Shown piece by piece: positions 42,512-56,318 of a DNA stretch of 64,000 bases; the stretch's first letter is position 1; each line of letters opens with the position of its first letter. The translations under genes and the position numbers were made by a program. The notes under the pieces were generated by a model. It searched no databases. It saw only the letters and a list, made by a program, of their open reading frames with translations, and was not told where the DNA came from. The DNA comes from Streptomyces sp. QL37. GTDB taxonomy: Bacteria > Actinomycetota > Actinomycetes > Streptomycetales > Streptomycetaceae. The DNA is taken from NCBI RefSeq assembly GCF_002941025.1, contig NZ_PTJS01000001.1, forward strand, positions 5,523,472 through 5,587,471, read 5' to 3'.

Positions 42512-43465
42512 CTACTCCTCCACGAGCAGCCGCTCGCGCAACTGCGCCAGTGTGCGGGCCAGGAGGCGGGAGACGTGCATCTGAGAGATGCCGACCTCCT
42601 GTGCGATCTGGGACTGGGTCATGTTGCCGAAGAAGCGCAGCAGCAGGATCCGCTTCTCGCGCGGCGGGAGGTCTTCCAGCAGCGGCTTGAGCGACTCGCG
42701 GTACTCGACGCCCTCCAGGGCCTCGTCCTCGGATCCCAGCGTGTCCGCGACCGCCGGCGACTCGTCGTCCGTGTCCGGGACGTCGAGCGAGAGGGTGCTG
42801 TAGGCATTGGCCGATTCCAGCCCCTCCAGGACCTCCTCCTCGGAGATGCCCAGACGCTCCGCCAGCTCGTGCACGGTCGGGGAGCGGCCGTGCTGCTGCG
42901 ACAGCTCGGCGGTGGCCGTGGTCAGCGACAGCCGCAGCTCCTGGAGGCGCCTCGGGACCCGAACCGCCCACCCCTTGTCCCGGAAGTGGCGCTTGATCTC
43001 ACCGACGACCGTGGGGGTCGCGTACGTCGAGAACTCGACGCCGCGGTCCGGGTCGAACCGGTCGACCGACTTGATCAGACCGATCGTGGCGACCTGCGTG
43101 AGGTCGTCCAGCGGTTCGCCGCGGTTGCGGAATCTGCGGGCCAGGTGCTCCACGAGCGGCAGATGCATCCGCACCAGCCGGTTGCGCAGCTCGGCCTTCT
43201 CCGCCGAGCCGTCGGGAAGCTCCCGGAGCTCGATGAAGAGCGCCCGTGCCCCGCTGCGGTCATGTGGATCGTGGTGCCCGTGCTCGCTCATCCGGCCCGC
43301 CCGCTCCGTCTGCGACTGCTCCGCCGCGGCCGGACGGTCCTGCGCTCCGTCCGTCCCGTCCTCCGGATGCGGCCGGGCCTGCTGCTCCGGAAGGGCGGCC
43401 GGGCGCACCGGCTCCGACCGGATCGTCTCGTCCCGCACAGGACCGTCCCCGTTCCCGTCGCTCAC
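42512..43465 (-). CDS. sigH: Stress/development sigma factor of the SigB/SigF/SigH group
   Basis: The 317-residue sigma factor has region 2 (RRFRNRGEPLDDLTQVATIGLIKSVDRFDPDRG), region 3 (RRLQELRLSLTTATAELSQQHGRSPTVHELAERLG) and region 4 (LPPREKRILLLRFFGNMTQSQIAQEVGISQMHVSRLLARTL). A 58-residue Pro/Glu-rich N-terminal extension precedes the core; an internal ATG at 43291 would give a 259-residue form. In S. coelicolor SigH is known in several N-terminal forms. The GTG at 43465 overlaps the anti-sigma stop (GTGA). SigH is inferred from the gene pair and its neighbours. Confidence 0.85.
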   Translation of the reverse strand: MSDGNGDGPVRDETIRSEPVRPAALPEQQARPHPEDGTDGAQDRPAAAEQSQTERAGRMSEHGHHDPHDRSGARALFIELRELPDGSAEKAELRNRLVRMHLPLVEHLARRFRNRGEPLDDLTQVATIGLIKSVDRFDPDRGVEFSTYATPTVVGEIKRHFRDKGWAVRVPRRLQELRLSLTTATAELSQQHGRSPTVHELAERLGISEEEVLEGLESANAYSTLSLDVPDTDDESPAVADTLGSEDEALEGVEYRESLKPLLEDLPPREKRILLLRFFGNMTQSQIAQEVGISQMHVSRLLARTLAQLRERLLVEE

Positions 43466-43875
43466 GCCGGCCCGGGTCCCGCGCCGCGCTGTTTGTAGAG
43501 GCTGATGCTGACCGTACGGTCGTCGGCGACCGTGGAGTCGACCTTGCCGGCCAGTGCGGAGAGCACCGTCCAGGCGAAGGTGTCGCGCTCGGGGGCGCGG
43601 CCGTCCGTCGTGGGGGCCGAGACGGTCACCTCGAGGGAATCGCCGACGAGTCGGAAGACGCAGCTGAGGACGGAGCCGGGCACGGCCTGCTGGAGCAGGA
43701 TCGCGCAGGCCTCGTCGACCGCGATGCGAAGATCCTCGATCTCGTCGAGAGTGAAGTCCAAGCGCGCTGCGAGGCCGGCCGTGGCCGTACGCAGCACCGA
43801 CAGGTAGGCACCCGCAGCGGGCAGCCGGACCTCTACGAAGTCCTGGTTCCCGGGCTCGCCTGCGATCTGGGACAC
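43462..43875 (-). CDS. Serine-kinase-type anti-sigma factor (RsbW/PrsH-UshX-like)
   Basis: This 137-residue HATPase-type protein has the N-box LRIAVDEACAIL and a degenerate G region. Such proteins hold SigB-group sigma factors inactive and are countered by anti-anti-sigma factors. The GTG at 43875 has GGAGG five bases upstream; a TTG at 43887 is less likely. It is translationally coupled to the sigma gene, matching the PrsH/UshX-SigH pair of S. coelicolor. Confidence 0.85.
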   Translation of the reverse strand: MSQIAGEPGNQDFVEVRLPAAGAYLSVLRTATAGLAARLDFTLDEIEDLRIAVDEACAILLQQAVPGSVLSCVFRLVGDSLEVTVSAPTTDGRAPERDTFAWTVLSALAGKVDSTVADDRTVSISLYKQRGAGPGPA

Positions 43876-44105
43876 CCTCACCTCCAAGGTGGCACAAACT
43901 CGTTCGAGGCTCCGGGACGGGTGCCCGGGGCCATGCGGACCGTCGTCGGTTCTGTGGTTCGGCGACGCTGTCGCGACCCATGATGCCGTGTCGCCGAGAC
44001 CGCAAGCCGCTGATTACTCATGGTAGGCATATGAGCACACACAGTGGCTAGGGGTCTGCGGCGGTCAATTGCGAAGAACCGGCGCCGGTTTGACGTACCC
44101 AGACG
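43876..44105. other. Upstream region of the anti-sigma/sigma operon
   Basis: No gene is evident. The inverted repeat CTCAT-N9-ATGAG (44017-44035) lies about 140 bp before the operon, and promoter elements for the minus strand are likely here, but I could not fix them. Confidence 0.4.
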
Positions 44106-47690: not shown

Positions 47691-48887
47691 TCAGTCCTGG
47701 GCGAGCCAGAGATCGGGGCCGAACACCTCGTAGTGGATGTCTGCCGACGCCACTCCCTTCGCGAGGAGTTGCGAACGGACGGCGCGCATGAAGGGCAGCG
47801 GGCCGCAGAGGTAGGCACGGGTGCCGGGGGCGACCGGGAGGCCGCTCAGGTCCACGGTGCCGGTGCGGCCGGGGGCCCGTCCGGGCTCCGGGTTCTCGTA
47901 CCAGAAGTGGGCGGTGGCTCCGGGGAGCCTGGCGGTGAGCGTCTCGTGGTCCGCGCGCAGCGCGTGGTCGGCCGGGGACCGGTCGCCGTGCACCACGGTC
48001 ACGGGCGAGCGGTGCCCCTCCTCCGCGAGGTGCTCCAGCATCGACATGATCGGGGTGCAGCCGATACCGGCCGAGGCGAGGAGCAGCGGGGCGTCGGAGC
48101 CGTCGAGCACGAGATCTCCGTACGGTGCCGAGACGCGCAGCCGGTCGCCGGCGCCCAGCCGCGCGTGCAGGTGCGCGGAGACCTCGCCCTCCGGGCCGTC
48201 CCCGCCGCGTACGCGCTTGACCGAGAAGGAGCGCAGGGCGGAGCCGGGCGCGCCGGTGAGGCTGTACTGGCGTATCTGCCGGGCGCCGTCGGGGAGTTCC
48301 ACCTGGACGGAGACGTACTGGCCCGGCCGGAAGGCGGGGGCGGGTGCGCCGTCGGAGGGGGTGACCCGGAAGGTTGCCACGTCAGGGGTGTCCTCGGTGC
48401 GGGAGACCACCGTCCATTCGCGCCAGACGTCGCCCGCCGTCACGCCCTGCTGCGCGTAGAGCCGCTCCTCGATCGCGATCAGGGCGTTGGCCATCAGCCA
48501 GTAGACCTCGTCCCAGGCCGCGGCCACCTCGGGGGTGACGGCGTCCCCGAGCACCTCGGCGATCGCGGCGAAGAGGTGGGTGTGCACGATCTCGTACTGC
48601 GGGGCGGTGATGCCGAGCGAGGCGTGTTTGTTGGCTATCCGGCTGAGCATCACGTCGGGCCGGGTGTCCGGGTGCTCGACGAGCTGGGTGGCGAAGGCGG
48701 CGATCGACCCGGCGAGCGCCTGACGCTGTGTGCCCGAAGCCTGGTTGCCCCGGTTGAACACGTCCCGGAGGAGCTCCGGGTGGGCGTCGAACAGCTTCCG
48801 GTAGAAGAGGTCCGCGATTTCCCCGATGGCGGCCCCCACGGCGGGAAGCGTGGCTCGGACGGTGACGGTCGACGTCTCGGAGAGCAT
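47691..48887 (-). CDS. hmp: Flavohaemoglobin, nitric oxide dioxygenase
   Basis: This 398-residue three-domain protein has a globin (residues 1-140, with the haem histidine in ANKHASLGI), an FAD domain (RQYSLTGAPG) and an NAD(P)H domain (GIGCTPIMSMLEHL, LCGPLPFMRAV). It oxidises NO to nitrate. AGGAG lies seven bases before the ATG at 48887. An operator matching that of nsrR sits 48 bp upstream of the start. Confidence 0.94.
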   Translation of the reverse strand: MLSETSTVTVRATLPAVGAAIGEIADLFYRKLFDAHPELLRDVFNRGNQASGTQRQALAGSIAAFATQLVEHPDTRPDVMLSRIANKHASLGITAPQYEIVHTHLFAAIAEVLGDAVTPEVAAAWDEVYWLMANALIAIEERLYAQQGVTAGDVWREWTVVSRTEDTPDVATFRVTPSDGAPAPAFRPGQYVSVQVELPDGARQIRQYSLTGAPGSALRSFSVKRVRGGDGPEGEVSAHLHARLGAGDRLRVSAPYGDLVLDGSDAPLLLASAGIGCTPIMSMLEHLAEEGHRSPVTVVHGDRSPADHALRADHETLTARLPGATAHFWYENPEPGRAPGRTGTVDLSGLPVAPGTRAYLCGPLPFMRAVRSQLLAKGVASADIHYEVFGPDLWLAQD

Positions 48888-48934
48888 CGGGTGACTCCTG
48901 GGTGTGAGGGCCGGCCGCGTGGCGGCCGGCCAGG

Positions 48935-48959
48935 TAATTGGTATATGAGATGCGCATTT
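48935..48959 (-). promoter_or_regulatory. NsrR-type operator of hmp
   Basis: TAATTGGTAT-N5-ATGCGCATTT has the same 10-5-10 layout as the nsrR site and shares the 11-base core ATATGAGATGC with it. The arms are less symmetrical than at nsrR. Confidence 0.7.
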
Positions 48960-49018
48960 TTGCCCGACGTGACCGCCCGCTGTGCGCGGTGGGGTTCGTG
49001 ACGGTGGGTGCCGACGGA

Positions 49019-49471
49019 TCAGCCGGGTGCGGGGCGGCCTCTGCTGATGCCCATCAGCAGAGGGCCGGTGGGGGAGGAGACGAGATCGCCGACCGTGAGC
49101 GGGTCCAGCGAGGCGTAGAACGCCTCCTCCGCCCGGCGCAGTGCGGAGCGGAGCAGGCAGGCGGAGCGCAGGGGGCATGGTGTGCCGCCCTCGCATTCGA
49201 CGACCTCACCCGGCCCTTCCAGCTGCCTCACCAGGGCGCCGATCGAGGCCGACCGGCCGGCGGTGGTGAGGGCGAGGCCCCCGCCCCTGCCGCGCCGCGC
49301 CTCGACCAGGCCGAGATGCTGGAGGCGGGCGACGACCTTCGCCGTGTGGGTGTACGGCACCTGCACGGTGGCCGCCACCTCCCGGGTGGTCGGTGGGTCC
49401 TCGCCCTCCGTCGTGACGGTCAGGCGCATGAGCACCCGGAGCGCCACATCGGTGAATCGCGTCAGCCGCAT
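49019..49471 (-). CDS. nsrR: Rrf2-family nitric oxide sensor NsrR
   Basis: The 150-residue Rrf2 repressor has cluster ligands Cys93, Cys99, Cys105 and Asp8 at exactly the positions known for the [4Fe-4S] NsrR of S. coelicolor. The winged helix includes YTHTAKVVARLQHLGLVEARRGRGGG. The start is the ATG at 49471. Its own promoter carries a perfect operator palindrome. In S. coelicolor NsrR represses only itself and flavohaemoglobin genes. Confidence 0.95.
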   Translation of the reverse strand: MRLTRFTDVALRVLMRLTVTTEGEDPPTTREVAATVQVPYTHTAKVVARLQHLGLVEARRGRGGGLALTTAGRSASIGALVRQLEGPGEVVECEGGTPCPLRSACLLRSALRRAEEAFYASLDPLTVGDLVSSPTGPLLMGISRGRPAPG

Positions 49472-49485
49472 GACGGCAGCGTATG

Positions 49486-49510
49486 TAAGTTGCATATGAG
49501 ATGCAACTTA
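49486..49510. promoter_or_regulatory. NsrR operator of nsrR
   Basis: A perfect palindrome, TAAGTTGCAT-N5-ATGCAACTTA, lies 15 bp before the nsrR start and about 100 bp before the divergent FAD-oxidase gene. Confidence 0.85.
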
Positions 49511-49608
49511 GGGCGCCCGTCCGCCGTGGAAGGAGCCGCGCCATCATGGGAGGTGCGGCCCCGTGACGGATGCGGGGTGCGTGTGGGCGAGAGAGGTGGT
49601 CAGCGGCA

Positions 49609-50997
49609 GTGCCGAAGCCGAACGCAGCCGACGGGATACCGGCGGACAAGGTCATCACCGACCCGGACAGCCTGGGCCGTTACGCGCACGACGAGGCGGA
49701 GTGGGCCCCGGCGGGGCAGCCCCTGGCCGTCGTGCGGCCCCAGGACACCGACGAGGTGCGGGCCGTCGTCGCGTACTGCGTCGAACACCGCATCCCGGTG
49801 ATCCCGCGCGGTGCGGGCACGGGCCTGTCGGGCGGGGCCAACGCGGTGGACGGCGCCGTCGTCCTCTCCTTCGAGGACATGAACCGGATCCTGCGCATCG
49901 ATCCGGTGGAGCGCATCGCCGTCGTCCAGCCGGGCGTCGTCAACGACGATCTGCGCGCCGCGTGTGCCGGACAGGGCCTCTGGTACCCGCCGGACCCGGC
50001 GAGCTCGCCCTGGTCGACGATCGGCGGCAACACCGCCACCAACGCGGGCGGCATGTGCTGCGTCAAGTACGGCGTGACCCGCGACTACGTGCTCGGACTC
50101 GAGGTCGTCAACGGCCTCGGCGAGACCGTGCGGGTGGGCCGGCAGACCGCGAAGGGGGTCGCCGGGTACGACCTCTGCGGCCTGTTCGTCGGCTCCGAGG
50201 GCACCCTCGGCGTGATCACCGAGATCACCGTGAAACTGCGCGGGGCGCGGCCGGCGGAACGTACCGTGGCGGGCTTCTTCGACTCCGTCGTCGCGGCCGG
50301 CGACGCGGTGAGCCGGGTGACGGCGGCGGGCATCGTGCCCTCGGCGCTCGAACTCCTCGACCGGCACTGCCTGAAGGCCGTCGACGAGTGGAAGAACATG
50401 GGCCTGTCGGCGGACGCGAACGCGATCCTGCTCGGCCGTGTGGACACCCCGGGAGCCGCGGGCGACGCCGAGGCCGAAGCCGTACGGGCCTGTTTCGCGG
50501 AGGCCGGAGCGGCCTGGGCCGAGGTCTCCACCGACCAGGCCGAGGCCGACGCCCTGTTCCAGGCCCGCCGGCTCGCCTACCCGGCGCTGGAGCGGCTGGG
50601 GCCGGTGCTCACCGAGGACGTCGTCGTGCCGCGCTCCCGGGTGCCGCAGATGCTCGCGCGCATCGAGGAGATCGCCGGCGCCCACGACGTCCTCATCGCC
50701 AACATCGCCCATGCCGGTGACGGGAACCTCCATCCCCTGATCATCACCGAACCCGGCGACGACGCCGCCAGGGCCCGCGCCCAGCTCGCCTTCGAGGACA
50801 TCCTCGACGCGGCGATCTCCTTCGGCGGCACGGTCACCGGTGAACACGGGGTGGGCCTGCTGAAGATGGGCGGCATGGACCGCGAGGTGGGCCCCGTCAA
50901 CCTCGCCATGCAGCGAGCGGTCAAGGCTGCCCTGGACCCCCACGGCATTCTCAACCCGGGCAAGGTCGTCGTGTCGGGAGCGCCGCTGGCGTACTGA
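49609..50997 (+). CDS. FAD-linked oxidase (GlcD/D-lactate dehydrogenase-like)
   Basis: The 462-residue protein has a PCMH FAD domain (PRGAGTGLSGGANA near residue 70, STIGGNTATNAGGMCCVKYG near 135, GYDLCGLFVGSEGTLG near 185) and the FAD-oxidase C-terminal domain (NIAHAGDGNLHPLI near 365, TVTGEHGVGLLK near 408). It oxidises a 2-hydroxy acid such as glycolate or D-lactate; the substrate is not resolved. The start is the GTG at 49609, with a GAGGTGG stretch upstream at longer spacing. It diverges from nsrR. Confidence 0.88.
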   Translation: MPKPNAADGIPADKVITDPDSLGRYAHDEAEWAPAGQPLAVVRPQDTDEVRAVVAYCVEHRIPVIPRGAGTGLSGGANAVDGAVVLSFEDMNRILRIDPVERIAVVQPGVVNDDLRAACAGQGLWYPPDPASSPWSTIGGNTATNAGGMCCVKYGVTRDYVLGLEVVNGLGETVRVGRQTAKGVAGYDLCGLFVGSEGTLGVITEITVKLRGARPAERTVAGFFDSVVAAGDAVSRVTAAGIVPSALELLDRHCLKAVDEWKNMGLSADANAILLGRVDTPGAAGDAEAEAVRACFAEAGAAWAEVSTDQAEADALFQARRLAYPALERLGPVLTEDVVVPRSRVPQMLARIEEIAGAHDVLIANIAHAGDGNLHPLIITEPGDDAARARAQLAFEDILDAAISFGGTVTGEHGVGLLKMGGMDREVGPVNLAMQRAVKAALDPHGILNPGKVVVSGAPLAY

Positions 50998-51007
50998 AGG
51001 ACCCGGC

Positions 51008-52018
51008 CTACCGAAGGGGTTCGCTGAGCTCGACGGCGCGCAGGGCCGCCGCGAGCGACTGCTCGTCGCCGAAGTCCACGGCCGTGTCGGTCAGCTTGAT
51101 GACGTGCTCGTCGCCGTGGGCCAGGGCACGTTCCATGACCTCTTCGGAAGTCATCCGGCCCGGCGGTACGTAGGCCACCGGGGCGTCGGGCGCGTACATG
51201 GCGGTCACCGCCGCGGACGCGGTCCAGGCGGCCTGGAGGCTCGGCACCCAAAGGGCCTCCGGGAGTGCGGGGAGGGTCCGCAGGACGGCGTTGGGGGCCG
51301 TGGCCGCGTGGACCAGCATCGTCGCCTCGCCGTGGCCGTGGGTGGCGTACCGGTGGGTGGCCGCCCGGACCAGTTCGGTGAGCCGGCGGCGGGCCTCGGC
51401 GGGGTCGGTGACCCCGGCGGCCCACACCGGCAGGCTCCTGATCCGGCCGAGCCGGTCGGAGAAGCCGCCCTCCCGTTCGCCGAGTGGCGCCACCGTGTCG
51501 AGGGCCGCGGCGGCGCTGCCGGCGCCGGGCGCGGGGGCGAGGCCGGTGACGGGGTGGTGGCGGGCCGCCCAGTAACCGAGGCCGTGGGCGAGTTCGGTGA
51601 GACGCGGTCCGGTCTCCTCGCCCGCCAGGAGCGTGCGGACCGCGTGGCCCACGCGGATCACCGGATGCGTCGCTCCGCCGTACACGCCGGGCAGGAGGCG
51701 CGGCCACCAGAGCGTGAGCACCTCGCGCCAGGGGTGGTCGGCGAGCTCCCGGCCGAAGTAGCCGATCCAGTCGGCGGCGCGGCGCGGGTCGCCGAGTGCG
51801 GAACGCCAGTCGGCGTCCGTGACCGGCTCCACGCCGGAGGGGAATTCCTCCAGCCTGGAGGCGTACAGGTCGAGCCAGCGGTGCACGGCGGACGACTGAC
51901 CGTTGGCGGCGAGGGCCTCCACGGCCATCGGGGCGTGGTTGCTGAGCCGTCCGAACCGCTCGGGGCCGGAGACGTGCAGCCGCTGGAGAGCCTCGTCGAG
52001 AGTGCCTGTCGTATCCAT
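51008..52018 (-). CDS. Questin oxidase-like protein (DUF4243)
   Basis: The 336-residue protein has family-typical segments (LSNHAPMAVEALAANG, WWPRLLPGVYGGATHPVIRVGHAVR, YATHGHGEATMLVHAATAPNAV). Fungal questin oxidase opens an anthraquinone ring; bacterial members are mostly uncharacterised. It converges on the FAD oxidase and diverges from the encapsulin gene. Confidence 0.8.
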   Translation of the reverse strand: MDTTGTLDEALQRLHVSGPERFGRLSNHAPMAVEALAANGQSSAVHRWLDLYASRLEEFPSGVEPVTDADWRSALGDPRRAADWIGYFGRELADHPWREVLTLWWPRLLPGVYGGATHPVIRVGHAVRTLLAGEETGPRLTELAHGLGYWAARHHPVTGLAPAPGAGSAAAALDTVAPLGEREGGFSDRLGRIRSLPVWAAGVTDPAEARRRLTELVRAATHRYATHGHGEATMLVHAATAPNAVLRTLPALPEALWVPSLQAAWTASAAVTAMYAPDAPVAYVPPGRMTSEEVMERALAHGDEHVIKLTDTAVDFGDEQSLAAALRAVELSEPLR

Positions 52019-52334
52019 GGCGGAAACGCTAGGCGGCTGTGCGCGGTGCCGTAACGGTCCAAGGTCCCGACCGCGGAGCGGGCTGAAGTCCTAGGTCCGG
52101 AGCCCTGGTTGCCCTGCGTCCGCAACGTCCGGCCTGGCCCGGACCCGCCTTGCCTCGCCACGTCCGCCCGGTCCCGTGTGGTTCTGCCCGGTCCGGGCTG
52201 AATGCCGGTGCCCAGGTGTGGGCAACGTTCCCGCCCCTGGCCTGAATAGTCACACTCTTTTGTGTAATAGCGCGCTGTGTCCCTGGCTGGAAGTCTTCCT
52301 CTCGCAGGTCAGCCCATGATCGAGAGGATGTCGG
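52019..52334. other. Upstream region of the encapsulin gene
   Basis: No gene is supported. An AT-richer patch near 52245-52270 contains ACAC-N6-GTGT (52252-52265) followed by TAATAG and may hold the encapsulin promoter. GAGAGG lies seven bases before the ATG at 52335. Confidence 0.4.
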
Positions 52335-53738
52335 ATGTCCGTTGGTGAAGAGGTTCGCGACACGCAGCCGCCGCAGCAGAGTCTCGGCACAGCGGCTGCG
52401 CGGAACCTCGCGACGACGACCAAGTCCGCCCCGCAGATGCAGGAGATCACCTCGCGGTGGCTGCTGCGCATGCTGCCGTGGGTGCAGGTGCAGGGCGGCA
52501 CATACCGGGTGAACCGGCGGCTGAGCTACTCCGTCGGAGACGGCAGGGTGACCTTCGTCCAGACCGGCGACCGGGTCTCGGTCATCCCCGCCGAGCTCGG
52601 AGAACTTCCGGCCCTGCGCGAATTCGGTGACGAGGAGGTACTGGCCGAGCTGGCACGCCGGTGCGAGCAGCGCGACGTCGCGGCCGGTGAAGTGCTCGTC
52701 GCGTCGGGCGAAGCGGCGGACCGGGTCCATCTGCTGGCCCACGGCAAGATCGAGAAGATCGGGACCGGGCCGTACGGCGACGAGACGGTGCTCGGTGTCC
52801 TCGCCGACGGCTCCTACTTCGGCGACCATGTCCTGCTCGACGGCGATGCCACCTGGGAGTACACGGCCCGTGCCGTGACCGCCTGCACGCTGCTGACCCT
52901 GCGCCGGTCGGACGTGCTCAACCTCGCGGCCCGGGCGGACTCGCTCCGTGACCACCTCGCGGGGCTGCTCGCCATCCCGCACCAGCGGACCAACCGCTAC
53001 GGCGAGGCCGAGATCGACCTGTCCGCGGGGCATGTGGGGGAGACCGTCGTCCCGCACACCTTCGTCGACTACGAGTCGGCGCCCCGTGAGTACGAACTGA
53101 GCGTCGCGCAGACGGTGCTGAAGGTCCACAGCAGGGTGGCCGACCTCTACAACCAGCCGATGAACCAGACCGAGCAGCAGTTGCGGCTCACGGTCGAGGC
53201 GCTGCGCGAGCGCCAGGAACACGAGCTCATCAACAACCGGGAGTTCGGCCTGCTCAACAACTGCGACTACGGGCAGCGTCTCCAGCCCCACGACGGAGCG
53301 CCCGGCCCGGACGACATGGACGAGCTCCTGTCACGCCGGCGCGGATCGAAGCTGTTCCTCGCCCACCCGCGCGCCATCGCCGCCTTCGGCCGCGAGTGCA
53401 ACAGGCGCGGCCTGGTGCCGGAGAGCGTCGAGGTCGGCGGACACCACGTGCCGGCGTGGCGAGGGGTGCCGATCTTCCCGTGCAACAAGATCCCGGTCAC
53501 CGACGCCCGCACCACATCGATCATCTGCATGAGGACCGGTGAGGAGGACCAGGGCGTCATCGGGCTCCAGCAGAGCGGCATCCCGGACGAGATCGAACCG
53601 AGCCTCTCGGTCCGCTTCATGGGTATCGACGAGCAGGCGATCATCTCCTACCTCGTGACCGCGTACTACTCCGCCGCCGTCCTCGTGCCCGACGCCCTCG
53701 GCGTCCTGGAGAACGTGGAGGTGAGCCGCTGGCGGTGA
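52335..53738 (+). CDS. Family 2B encapsulin shell protein (EshA/MMPI-like) with cyclic-nucleotide-binding-like domain
   Basis: The 467-residue protein has an N-terminal arm ([20 protein letters not shown]), an HK97-type shell fold interrupted at about residues 90-215 by a cNMP-binding-like domain ([48 protein letters not shown]), and the conserved C-terminal shell half ([62 protein letters not shown]). Family 2B encapsulins assemble into capsid-like compartments. The usual Arg of the phosphate-binding cassette is not seen in [19 protein letters not shown], so nucleotide binding is doubtful. The next gene, a polyprenyl diphosphate synthase, is the probable cargo. EshA of S. coelicolor and S. 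griseus is a relative linked to sporulation and antibiotic production. Confidence 0.88.
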
Positions 53739-53747
53739 CGCTCCCCC

Positions 53748-53776
53748 GGGTCCGGGCGGCGGGACCGCCCGGACCC
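53748..53776 (+). terminator. Hairpin between encapsulin and prenyl synthase
   Basis: A 12-bp perfect stem, GGGTCCGGGCGG (53748-53759) with CCGCCCGGACCC (53765-53776), lies 10 bases after the encapsulin stop. It could terminate most transcripts, so that shell protein is made in large excess over the enzyme. Confidence 0.65.
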
Positions 53777-53830
53777 CGGCAGGCCCGAGGCCGCGATCAA
53801 GGCGCCCCGTGGCGCCCGTAAGGAGTGACC

Positions 53831-54880
53831 GTGACCATGACCAGTACGGATGCCGCGATGGAGGGGCAGAAGGCTGCCGCGCTCCTGGAGCACACCCGCA
53901 ACGCCGTCGACCCGCACCTCCGGGCGGCCGTCGAGACGCTGCCCGGGGCGATCCGCCGCGTCGCCATGTATCACTTCGGCTGGCAGAACGCCGACGGGAC
54001 GCCCGCCTCCGGACAGGCCGGCAAGGCGATCAGACCGGCGCTCGTCCTGGCCGCCGCCCGTGCGCTGGGAGGGGACCCGGACGCGGCGATGAGGGCGGCC
54101 GTCGCCGTCGAGCTCGCGCACAACTTCACGCTGCTCCACGACGACGTCATCGACGAGGACACCACCCGGCGGCACCGGCCCACGGCCTGGGCGGTGTTCG
54201 GCGTGCCGGACGCCGTGATCACGGGGGACGCCATGCTCTCCCTCGCCCTGAGGCTGCTGGCGGACGACCCACATCCGGCATCCGCACACGCCGCGGTGCG
54301 GCTCTCCACCTGCGTCATCGAGCTCTGCGCGGGACAGCAGGCCGACTGCGCCCTGGAGGACCGTGGCCCCGACGACGTCACGCTGGACGAGTGCCTCGCC
54401 ATGGCCATGGCCAAGACGGGTGCGCTGCTCGGCTGCGCCTGCGCCCTCGGCGCGCTCTACGCAGGCGCGGGGGAGCGGGAGGTCCGTGCCATGGACGGTT
54501 TCGGCCGGGAAGCCGGCCTCGCATTCCAGCTCATCGACGATCTGATCGGGATCTGGGGGGACACGGACCGCACGGGCAAACCGGTCGGGGCGGACCTGAC
54601 CGCACACAAGAAGTCCCTTCCGGTCGTCGCGGCGCTCACCTCGGACACCCCGGCCGCCGCCGAGCTCGCCGAGCTCTACCGGGGGGCCATGAACACACCG
54701 GGGGAGGTGAGGAGTGCCGCCGACGCGGTAGACCGGGCCGGCGGGCGCGACTGGGCACAGACCGCCGCGGCCGACCGGATGGCCAGGGCGGTCCACCACC
54801 TGTCCCGCGCGGTGCCCGCGCCGGCCGACGCCGGGGACCTGCTCGCCCTGGCCGAGTTCGTCACCCGCAGAACGCACTGA
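53831..54880 (+). CDS. All-trans polyprenyl diphosphate synthase, probable encapsulin cargo
   Basis: The 349-residue enzyme has the first Asp-rich motif HDDVID at 103-108 and the second DDLIGIWGD at 236-244, plus GKAIRPAL near 64. Phe99, five residues before the first motif, is bulky, which in this family usually limits products to short chains (C10-C20). GTG 53831 has AAGGAG five bases upstream; GTG 53825 and ATG 53837 are in frame. The catalytic domain begins almost at once, so there is no long disordered N-terminal tail of the kind used for loading by some family 2 cargos. It follows the encapsulin gene by 92 bp, separated by a hairpin. Confidence 0.87.
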   Translation: MTMTSTDAAMEGQKAAALLEHTRNAVDPHLRAAVETLPGAIRRVAMYHFGWQNADGTPASGQAGKAIRPALVLAAARALGGDPDAAMRAAVAVELAHNFTLLHDDVIDEDTTRRHRPTAWAVFGVPDAVITGDAMLSLALRLLADDPHPASAHAAVRLSTCVIELCAGQQADCALEDRGPDDVTLDECLAMAMAKTGALLGCACALGALYAGAGEREVRAMDGFGREAGLAFQLIDDLIGIWGDTDRTGKPVGADLTAHKKSLPVVAALTSDTPAAAELAELYRGAMNTPGEVRSAADAVDRAGGRDWAQTAAADRMARAVHHLSRAVPAPADAGDLLALAEFVTRRTH

Positions 54881-54973
54881 ACCAGGCCGCCCGTGACCGG
54901 CCCCGAGGCCCAACTCTAGGATTCCATGCGTCGGTTGGGATCGATATTGCGGGACGAAGGGAGCGGGCCGGTC

Positions 54974-55570
54974 ATGGGCGTGCGAGTACGGCGGGCGGAC
55001 CAGCGGGACAGGGACCAGGTCGTACGGATCCTGGAGGAGGCGTTCCACCACGATCCGGTGAGCAGCTGGGTCTTTCCCGACGAGGAGCACCGGCGCGCGG
55101 TGCACGGGAGGTTCCTCGGCGTCTTCGCCGACATCACGCTGGAAGAGGGGCGTGTCGACCTGCTGGAGGACGGCACGGCGGCGGCCCTCTGGCTCTCCGT
55201 GCCGGCCGGCGAGCCGGAGGAGGACGACGAGACCCCGGCGCTCATGCGCGAGACCGCTGATCCCGACAACGAACGGGCCGAACTGGTGGGGAGGCTGACC
55301 GGTGCCGTTCACCCCCACGACCGCGCGCACGAGTACCTGCTGATGATCGGTGTCTCCCCGGAGCGCCAGGGGGAGGGGATCGGGGAGGCACTGATGAGGG
55401 GGGTCCTGGAGCGGTGCGACCAGGAGGGGACCCCCGCCTATCTGGAGGCGAGCAGCGAGCGCAGCCGGGGTCTCTACGAGCGGCTCGGCTTCACCTTCAC
55501 GGGGAGGACCGTCGACCTCCCCCAGGGCCCGCCGATGTGGCCCATGTGGCGTGAACCGCAGGCCGGATGA
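54974..55570 (+). CDS. GNAT-family N-acetyltransferase
   Basis: The 198-residue acetyltransferase has its acetyl-CoA segment at LLMIGVSPERQGEGIGEALM and the C-terminal YERLGFTFTGRTVDLP. TAGGAT at 54917-54922 could be its promoter -10, giving separate transcription from the prenyl synthase gene 93 bp upstream. ATG 54974 is preferred; ATG 54926 is in frame. The substrate is unknown. Confidence 0.82.
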   Translation: MGVRVRRADQRDRDQVVRILEEAFHHDPVSSWVFPDEEHRRAVHGRFLGVFADITLEEGRVDLLEDGTAAALWLSVPAGEPEEDDETPALMRETADPDNERAELVGRLTGAVHPHDRAHEYLLMIGVSPERQGEGIGEALMRGVLERCDQEGTPAYLEASSERSRGLYERLGFTFTGRTVDLPQGPPMWPMWREPQAG

Positions 55571-55649
55571 CCGGGTCGTCGCCACCGGAGACCCGGAAGG
55601 GGAGGGTGCCACAGGGCGTGCGCCGGGGCACGGGCTACAGTCCCTGCTC

Positions 55650-56318
55650 ATGACAGATGAGTCGTGGGCAGGCTGGTACCGGGACCGCCATGGTTCCGAG
55701 GCCGTCATTCTCACCACGGACGGACAGCAGCTCCGTATTCGCATCCGGGGCACGGACTTCGAGGGCGAGAGCTTCGACGGTCTGGGCCCCGTGACCGGTG
55801 TGCCGGTTCCGGAAGGGCTGTTCGGCCTGGTGGACGGCGTGCTCGACGACTGTGTCCTGGAGTGGGACCTCCCGCTCCCGGTCCTCGTGTCCGGGACGGT
55901 CCGCCAGGCGACGCTCAGCTGTCTGCTGTCCCTGCGCAGGGCGGATCCGGATCTGTACCTCGCCCTCCATCTGGACGGCGCGGTCTACGAGTCGAACCGC
56001 GCCGAGGGCGACTTCGCGGCCGCGCTGGCGACGGTCCAGCGGATCCTGCCGCCGGGCATGCATCTGCAGACGTGCATAGCCTGCGCCTTCTCCGACTACT
56101 TCCCGGCCCCGGTCCGGGGCCTCTCCGGCGGGCTCGCCTGCTTCCGCGGTGCGAAGGACGCCTACCGCGACGTGGCGGGCGGGGACGACGTCGCGGGCCT
56201 CTGGGACCGGCGTACGGGATTCGTCCAGGAGATATGGAGCTGCCGGGAGTTCGAACCGCGCCCGGCGCACGGCGCCGGCACGGGCCACCGGGGCGCCTTC
56301 CCGCTCGAACTCGCCTGA
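55650..56318 (+). CDS. Conserved actinobacterial hypothetical protein (DUF6304-like)
   Basis: The 222-residue protein begins MTDESWAGWYRDRHGSEAVI. It has a beta-rich N-terminal half and three cysteines, one pair in LQTCIACAFSDY. I recall this as a Streptomyces family of unknown function, probably DUF6304. TACAGT lies eight bases before the ATG at 55650 with no ribosome site, so the message is probably leaderless. No function can be assigned. Confidence 0.7.
   Translation: MTDESWAGWYRDRHGSEAVILTTDGQQLRIRIRGTDFEGESFDGLGPVTGVPVPEGLFGLVDGVLDDCVLEWDLPLPVLVSGTVRQATLSCLLSLRRADPDLYLALHLDGAVYESNRAEGDFAAALATVQRILPPGMHLQTCIACAFSDYFPAPVRGLSGGLACFRGAKDAYRDVAGGDDVAGLWDRRTGFVQEIWSCREFEPRPAHGAGTGHRGAFPLELA

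Follow-up and report, generated by a model that had tools for sequence, protein, structure and literature searches.

The window analysed here, a stretch of 64,000 nucleotides of Streptomyces sp. QL37 (contig NZ_PTJS01000001.1, positions 5,523,472 to 5,587,471), contains two adjacent genes, one for an encapsulin shell protein and one for an all-trans polyprenyl diphosphate synthase (polyprenyl transferase, PT), which form the subject of this study. The features of the pair are as follows.

52335..53738, + strand: family 2B encapsulin shell protein, EshB type, 467 amino acids (NF041163, PF19307)
52383..52403, + strand: N-arm motif LGTAAAR of the shell protein, which resembles the cargo motif GxGTSAAR (read from the shell's own sequence)
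52671..52934, + strand: cyclic-nucleotide-binding-like insert of the shell protein, residues 113-200 (PF00027, 58.6 bits)
53825..54880, + strand: all-trans polyprenyl diphosphate synthase (PT), 351 amino acids as listed, probably 349 (NF041169, PF00348)

A conserved shell-PT gene pair

In profile searches the shell protein scored 776.7 bits against NF041163 (encap_f2b, cut-off 400), the NCBI model for the 'family 2B encapsulin nanocompartment shell protein', and 462.2 bits against PF19307 at residues 216-464. The PF00027 insert precedes the PF19307 domain, so that the inserted cyclic-nucleotide-binding-like domain that marks family 2B is present, and the family 2B assignment made in the initial annotation for the gene at 52335 is borne out. 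By sequence, the best-matching solved relatives were 9bhu, 9bix and 9bje, the alignment with 9bhu being full-length. We take 9bhu to be the shell of the 2-methylisoborneol (2-MIB) operon, a shell reported on in a 2024 study. Being related in sequence to solved shells, the protein may form icosahedral particles; its own AlphaFold2 model was poor (mean predicted local distance difference test score, pLDDT, 58.8) and was left unused. Within the N-arm, residues S16, T19, A21, A22 and R23 were unchanged across 24 aligned shells. The profile search found a single 2B shell in the genome.

The PT exceeded the cut-off of NF041169 (f2_encap_cargo4; 494.3 bits against 450), named by NCBI 'family 2 encapsulin nanocompartment cargo protein polyprenyl transferase', and scored 197.7 bits against PF00348, in agreement with the earlier reading of the next same-strand gene as an all-trans prenyl diphosphate synthase. 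That reading had also listed both Asp-rich motifs and a bulky Phe. The Phe, five residues ahead of the first Asp (HNFTLLHDD), and the first Asp-rich motif (FARM; DDVID) are indeed present, whereas the second motif is DDLIG, that is, DDxxG and not DDxxD. This form is typical of the PT family: the pattern DDxx[x]xxGD was found in 102 of the 106 PT sequences (4 unmatched), with G as the fifth letter in all 102, the set comprising 80 GTDB loci and 26 genome loci with some species included twice. The listed start codon, GTG 53825, overlaps the Shine-Dalgarno sequence AAGGAG (53820-53825); translation probably begins at GTG 53831 instead, which is also the start picked by the start-choice rule for PTs. 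Of the 120 nearest listed homologues of each protein, many carry these NCBI names. An unlinked PT paralogue (L087, G000:C1:894583-895596) scored 411 bits against NF041169, below its cut-off. The structure 3nf2 was considered for the PT and rejected, as it scored 655.7 bits to this paralogue and 245.2 bits to the PT.

The two genes are co-directional and 86 bp apart. The pairing is not a matter of chance: a search with the PT gave 80 GTDB loci, of which 77 have the shell directly upstream (in L065 and L081 it is cut by a contig end), and in the other three (L023, L026, L083) the contig ends less than 150 bases from the PT. We also searched 246 genomes of the class, where a 2B shell lay within 1 kb of 26 of the 30 PTs over the NF041169 cut-off (exceptions in G019, G141, G087 and G016). 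Listed PTs at 400 to 450 bits had no 2B shell within 25 kb (0/61), and those at 250 to 400 bits had one within 1 kb in 6 of 38 cases and within 25 kb in 12. The pair was found in 20 of the 22 Streptomyces of this class sample, and in the other two (G089, G234) a pair of 2B shells stands in tandem and a PT of this kind is lacking. The pair is thus near-core in Streptomyces, and the conserved pairing, which had been put forward as a check, is supported.

The pair is an instance of an already catalogued kind. A 2021 survey (Andreas and Giessen, PMC8346489) reports 900 PT-type 2B operons, 888 of them in Actinobacteria, and the locus shares with this type the 2B shell with inserted cyclic-nucleotide-binding-like domain and the PT gene. 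The earlier remark that the prenyl-synthase type has little experimental description also fits the papers searched, none of which names both encapsulin and prenyl diphosphate synthase.

An unlinked geosmin synthase with an encapsulin cargo motif

Geosmin is the classic Streptomyces odorant, the smell of soil, and its synthase takes farnesyl diphosphate (FPP) as substrate. Among six terpene-synthase domain matches in the genome, two fall within one bidomain protein of the geosmin synthase type:

G000:C1:8373937-8376102: geosmin synthase, bidomain terpene cyclase (NF041168)

This is the only geosmin synthase of the genome and it lies 2.8 Mb from the sole 2B shell, so the two genes are not adjacent. 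It scored just over the cut-off of NF041168 (1201.4 bits against 1200), an NCBIfam model that labels this type a family 2 encapsulin cargo. Its C-terminus holds HISGPTGFGTSAARVTRLL and ends in GPTGFGTSAAR. In the survey, geosmin-synthase-like cyclases linked to encapsulins have the motif GPTGLGTSAAR, and 2-MIB-synthase-like cyclases have GPTGLGT (PMC8346489). Between the two domains of the enzyme only a degenerate PGFGMAAA was seen. The DNA pattern for P[TS]G[LF]GT[AS]A had a single match in the 8.8 Mb of the genome, namely the geosmin synthase tail. Over six genomes it had five matches, one each in five, compared to one for the reversed control; coordinate comparison placed all five at geosmin synthase ends, and the sixth genome (G263), which has Ile at that position, had no match. 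An AlphaFold2 model of the enzyme, built from 15 sequences, had a mean pLDDT of 81 and values under 50 in the tail (residues 707-753) and in the linker (residues 328-362), which is a weak hint of an exposed flexible tail.

Two known systems resemble this arrangement. In the eshA-mibA-mibB operon for 2-methylisoborneol (PMC6428758) a 2B-type shell gene likewise accompanies a terpene pathway under developmental control, but the cyclase there is inside the operon, whereas the operon in the window contains just the PT beside the shell, and its candidate cyclase is encoded at a distant site. The geosmin-synthase-like 2B operons and the myxobacterial geosmin clusters (PMC8346489, PMC12224551) share the geosmin synthase with a GPTGLGTSAAR-type motif; there, cyclase and encapsulin genes are clustered, whereas they are unlinked in nearly all sampled Streptomyces.

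Geosmin synthase and 2B shell occur together and are clustered in some relatives

To the 246 class genomes we added 29 further Streptomyces, giving 275 genomes, and called geosmin synthase at 950 bits or more, or as a split copy in G255. The enzyme was present in 80 genomes (52 of the class genomes and 28 of the further Streptomyces), and 79 of these also have a 2B shell (that of G099 is a fragment where a contig ends). In the remaining genome, G019, an insert-less family 2 shell stands beside the geosmin synthase. By contrast, where geosmin synthase is lacking (195 genomes), a 2B shell was found in only 4 (G037, G197, G223, G130). Groups of sampled genomes are coded f17, f18 and f19. Within the groups that vary, the 2B shell was found in 13/13 f17 genomes with geosmin synthase and 3/8 without, in 16/16 and 0/4 for f18, and in 50/50 and 0/1 (G253) for Streptomyces. 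These counts concern related genomes and are not independent events. In G019 the geosmin synthase is about 120 bp from the insert-less shell (L267).

Geosmin synthase lies within 4 kb of a 2B shell in 15 of the 16 f18 genomes and 10 of the 13 f17 genomes. Shell, PT and geosmin synthase lie together on one strand in G071, G189 and G099 and at the f17 loci L356, L365 and L380; in the three genomes geosmin synthase comes after shell and PT, with a gap to the PT of 45 bp in G189 and about 1.4 kb in G071 and G099. The tail motif, by a loose pattern, was present in 13/13 geosmin synthases of f17, in 15/15 of those fetched from f18 (that of G056, which has a stop, was not among them) and in the single one of f19; both this pattern and the 4 kb limit were chosen after seeing the data. 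A search of 120 f17-family genomes, with loci taken for the 30 best matches, gave 27 new loci. The loose pattern finds the C-terminal motif in every one of the 27, and 12 have a shell within about 1.5 kb, three of them also a PT (L356, L365, L380). The other 15, with no shell within that distance, still have the motif.

Among the 29 further Streptomyces, shell and geosmin synthase were seen side by side in G255, where the geosmin synthase is frameshifted, an eshB-type shell diverges from it, and the 13 kb read showed no PT (L339). In G251 an eshB-type shell is kept together with a geosmin synthase that has the tag, and the 3.7 kb read downstream contained no PT.

Two groups of Streptomyces differ in the tail and in the PT N-terminus

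The tail motif is absent in 26 of the 50 Streptomyces geosmin synthases, in genomes that have kept shell and PT. Among the other 24 it was found in 21 by the loose pattern, the misses being G143 and G257, where it is degenerate, and the frameshifted G255. The 26 tail-less genomes, a group defined from the tail itself, form one clade in the shell tree (Shimodaira-Hasegawa-like approximate likelihood ratio test support 99) with G247 and G265 as sister, and in the PT tree a branch with support 90 sets them apart; both trees were quick ones with long-branch warnings. With PT starts chosen by rule, the N-terminus is 13-18 residues long in 14 of 17 genomes outside the clade (ambiguous or longer in G143, G247 and G265) and at least 35 residues in 20 of the 26 within it. 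G246 has 24 residues, and the starts chosen in G208, G225, G256, G261 and G268 are not trusted. In these sequences, loss of the tail and the longer PT N-terminus look as if the two enzymes had exchanged the targeting role. We rejected the change as repeated evidence; since each tree keeps the tail-less genomes together, it is a single transition. Because the tail-less clade keeps shell and PT, the shell there would have to serve something else or use another signal.

The shell gene as probable eshB and the element upstream of it

Three further features bear on the identity and control of the shell gene.

42515..43465, - strand: SigB/F/G-family sigma factor, used as a synteny marker only (TIGR02980, 320.7 bits)
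43465..43932, - strand: RsbW-like anti-sigma factor, used as a synteny marker only (RsbW models under their cut-offs)
52248..52268, + strand: near-invariant 21-bp element, AGTCACACTCTTTTGTGTAAT, about 87 bp upstream of the shell start

The sigma/anti-sigma pair is 8.4 kb from the shell gene. Around the shell in 20 Streptomyces regions an anti-sigma relative was found in at least 14 and a sigma relative in at least 9; these are lower bounds, as they come from a rough gene call that recovered the PT in only 13 of the 20. In S. coelicolor, eshB is SCO5249 (PMC3878966), and SigH and its anti-sigma factor are listed as SCO5243 and SCO5244. Because this synteny matches, the shell gene is most likely the orthologue of eshB, an assignment made from gene order. 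eshB is a cyclic-nucleotide-binding-like paralogue of eshA, is separated by few genes from the sigH/anti-sigma pair, and is developmentally up-regulated. The window differs in its extra genes between the sigma pair and the shell, which encode a flavohaemoglobin, an Rrf2 regulator, an FAD oxidase and a questin-oxidase-like protein. The eshB promoter is reported to be up-regulated during development (PMC3878966), and SCO5249 had log2 values of 2.9, 3.2 and 2.4 in second mycelium (24, 48 and 72 h) over first mycelium, with geoA likewise up in second mycelium (PMC3610822). Among the literature matches listed for eshB, only an expression passage was found.

The 21-bp element had a mean column identity of 0.95, compared to 0.71 over the 200 bp upstream (76 sequences), and one match in its own genome at up to 3 mismatches. 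Over 31 Streptomyces genomes the pattern had 30 matches against 7 for the reversed control, and 20 of the 30, in 20 of the 31 genomes at up to 3 mismatches, lie upstream of an eshB-type shell. A BldM site was considered and dropped, the element being unlike the BldM consensus quoted in PMC4125116.

A shell that may compartmentalise geosmin synthase in trans

The initial annotation had reasoned that, with no terpene cyclase present, the compartment would make or store a short prenyl diphosphate itself. As worded, this step is not supported, since the cyclase is absent from the window only: the geosmin synthase of the genome matches NF041168 and carries the cargo motif, some relatives encode it beside 2B shell and PT, and the PT in this lineage lacks the long disordered N-terminus proposed as loading domain. 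We favour, with a probability of about 0.52, the reading that the shell of the eshB locus compartmentalises the geosmin synthase encoded in trans and that the PT works with or inside this shell. In this reading the shell has a single component and the PT is a short-chain synthase, and the two would probably be made from one transcript. The geosmin synthase, encoded 2.8 Mb away, would be loaded through its C-terminal GPTGFGTSAAR tail, and the PT, inside or beside the shell, would supply FPP or a longer prenyl diphosphate; loading, PT product and its flow to the geosmin synthase are what we infer. Behind this reading stand the following observations: what the two genes encode and how widely the pair is kept, the presence of just one 2B shell, the tail with its rarity in the genome, the co-occurrence, and the clusters shared in some relatives.

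Several points weigh against it. The tail-less clade is the first. In Streptomyces shell and geosmin synthase are unlinked (0/22 within 4 kb), and in a quick tree the EshB shells group with other Streptomyces shells, taken as 2-MIB (EshA) type from weak nearby cyclase matches, and not with the f17 shells beside geosmin synthase. The co-occurrence is structured by phylogeny and involves few families. At least 10 genomes that have no geosmin synthase do have an insert-less family 2 shell; these include seven of the eight genomes that passed the shell cut-off only as joined pieces skipping the insert and were set aside as family 2A-like (the eighth is G019), and also G190, G179 and G169, whose insert-less shells are under the cut-off. 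With the strict pattern PTG[LFI]GTSA the tail counts are lower, at 4/13 for f17, 6/15 for f18 and 0/1 for f19, and at 14 of the 24 Streptomyces of the tailed group. The 21-bp element was not found at the geosmin synthase in the search of the own genome at up to 3 mismatches. The PT scored 359.3 bits as a geranylgeranyl diphosphate (GGPP) synthase (IdsB) and 152.3 bits as an FPP synthase, both under cut-off, which is unfavourable because geosmin synthase uses FPP; the FARM context and the profiles together leave FPP and GGPP undecided. The short word [LF]GT[AS]AAR, covering the shared word LGT[AS]AAR, occurs four times in the genome, with two of the occurrences in open reading frames judged not to be genes, compared to two matches for the reversed control. 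Finally, the physical encapsulation of geosmin synthase or PT is a prediction from comparative data.

A more specific version, which we hold tentatively, sees one geosmin compartment split over two loci, in which the tail would mimic the N-arm of the shell (LGTSAAR and LGTAAAR), loading would take place in trans, and in one clade targeting would have passed to the PT. The control pattern makes the short shared word less rare and so slightly weakens this version. If it is true, both earthy Streptomyces odorants, geosmin and 2-MIB, would be made inside encapsulins.

The main competing explanation, which we regard as unlikely, takes the PT as the dedicated and only cargo, with the shell making or channelling a prenyl diphosphate and the geosmin synthase tail a relic. 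The PT as cargo was proposed in the 2021 survey (PMC8346489), and this explanation agrees with the adjacent shell in all 77 GTDB loci whose upstream side is present, with the 26 of 30 PTs over the NF041169 cut-off within 1 kb of a 2B shell, and with the longer PT N-termini in most of the tail-less clade. However, the PT cargos of the survey have a disordered N-terminus of 50-100 residues (PMC8346489), and the PT of the window has no such domain: at most 19 residues precede its fold, closed off by an in-frame stop, and the N-terminus is about equally short in seven GTDB loci (L018, L061, L064, L065, L077, L081, L082). The cargo motif was found near the N-terminus in 0 of 43 and 0 of 111 PT sequences in two sets, and in G251 and G255 the shell is retained although the stretch read showed no PT.

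Slightly less probable still is that PT and geosmin synthase are both encapsulated in EshB, the PT through its folded surface, as perhaps in the terpene cyclase/PT operons of relatives. The clustering of shell, PT and geosmin synthase in six f17 genomes is what this would lead one to expect, and in the survey 165 systems combine the two enzyme types within a single cluster (PMC8346489), but the two PT sets just mentioned show no loading signal and the same data fit a PT outside the shell. That the shell has lost its enzymatic cargo in Streptomyces and now acts in development or signalling, which older genetic work on EshA suggests (judged from the titles of papers on guanosine tetraphosphate (ppGpp), antibiotic production and sporogenic hyphal branches), is improbable given the PT beside the shell in 20/22 Streptomyces and the 29 further Streptomyces, 28 of which have shell as well as geosmin synthase and one neither.

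What the favoured reading, geosmin synthase enclosed by the eshB shell, adds to the known pair is a pointer to geosmin synthase as an unlinked cargo. Among the literature matches listed, none was found that describes the eshB shell as carrying geosmin synthase. If the reading is true, the developmentally regulated eshB shell gains a function and the prenyl synthase has a reason to stay beside it, cargo loading in trans and the resemblance to the N-arm become directly testable in laboratory strains, and a search for encapsulin cargos by gene neighbourhood alone misses unlinked ones.

Neighbouring genes

One gene downstream of the pair is a possible optional member of the operon.

54926..55570, + strand: GNAT acetyltransferase, 45 bp after the PT (PF00583)

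It was found in 44 of the 80 GTDB loci. Downstream of it lies a DUF6304 gene (55551-56318), with matches in 78 of the 80 loci at varying distance. Upstream of the shell, FAD-linked oxidase and questin-oxidase-like genes (49570-52018) stand between an Rrf2 regulator and the shell and were each matched in 7 of the 80 loci. Flavohaemoglobin and the Rrf2/NsrR-like regulator occupy 47694-49495; the regulator was matched in 52 and the flavohaemoglobin in 51 of the 80 loci, many of them divergent from the shell at 152-259 bp. An inverted repeat of the 11-1-11 kind (about 49487-49509) sits at the regulator's own promoter, and the element upstream of the shell differs from it, so NsrR control of the shell was dropped.

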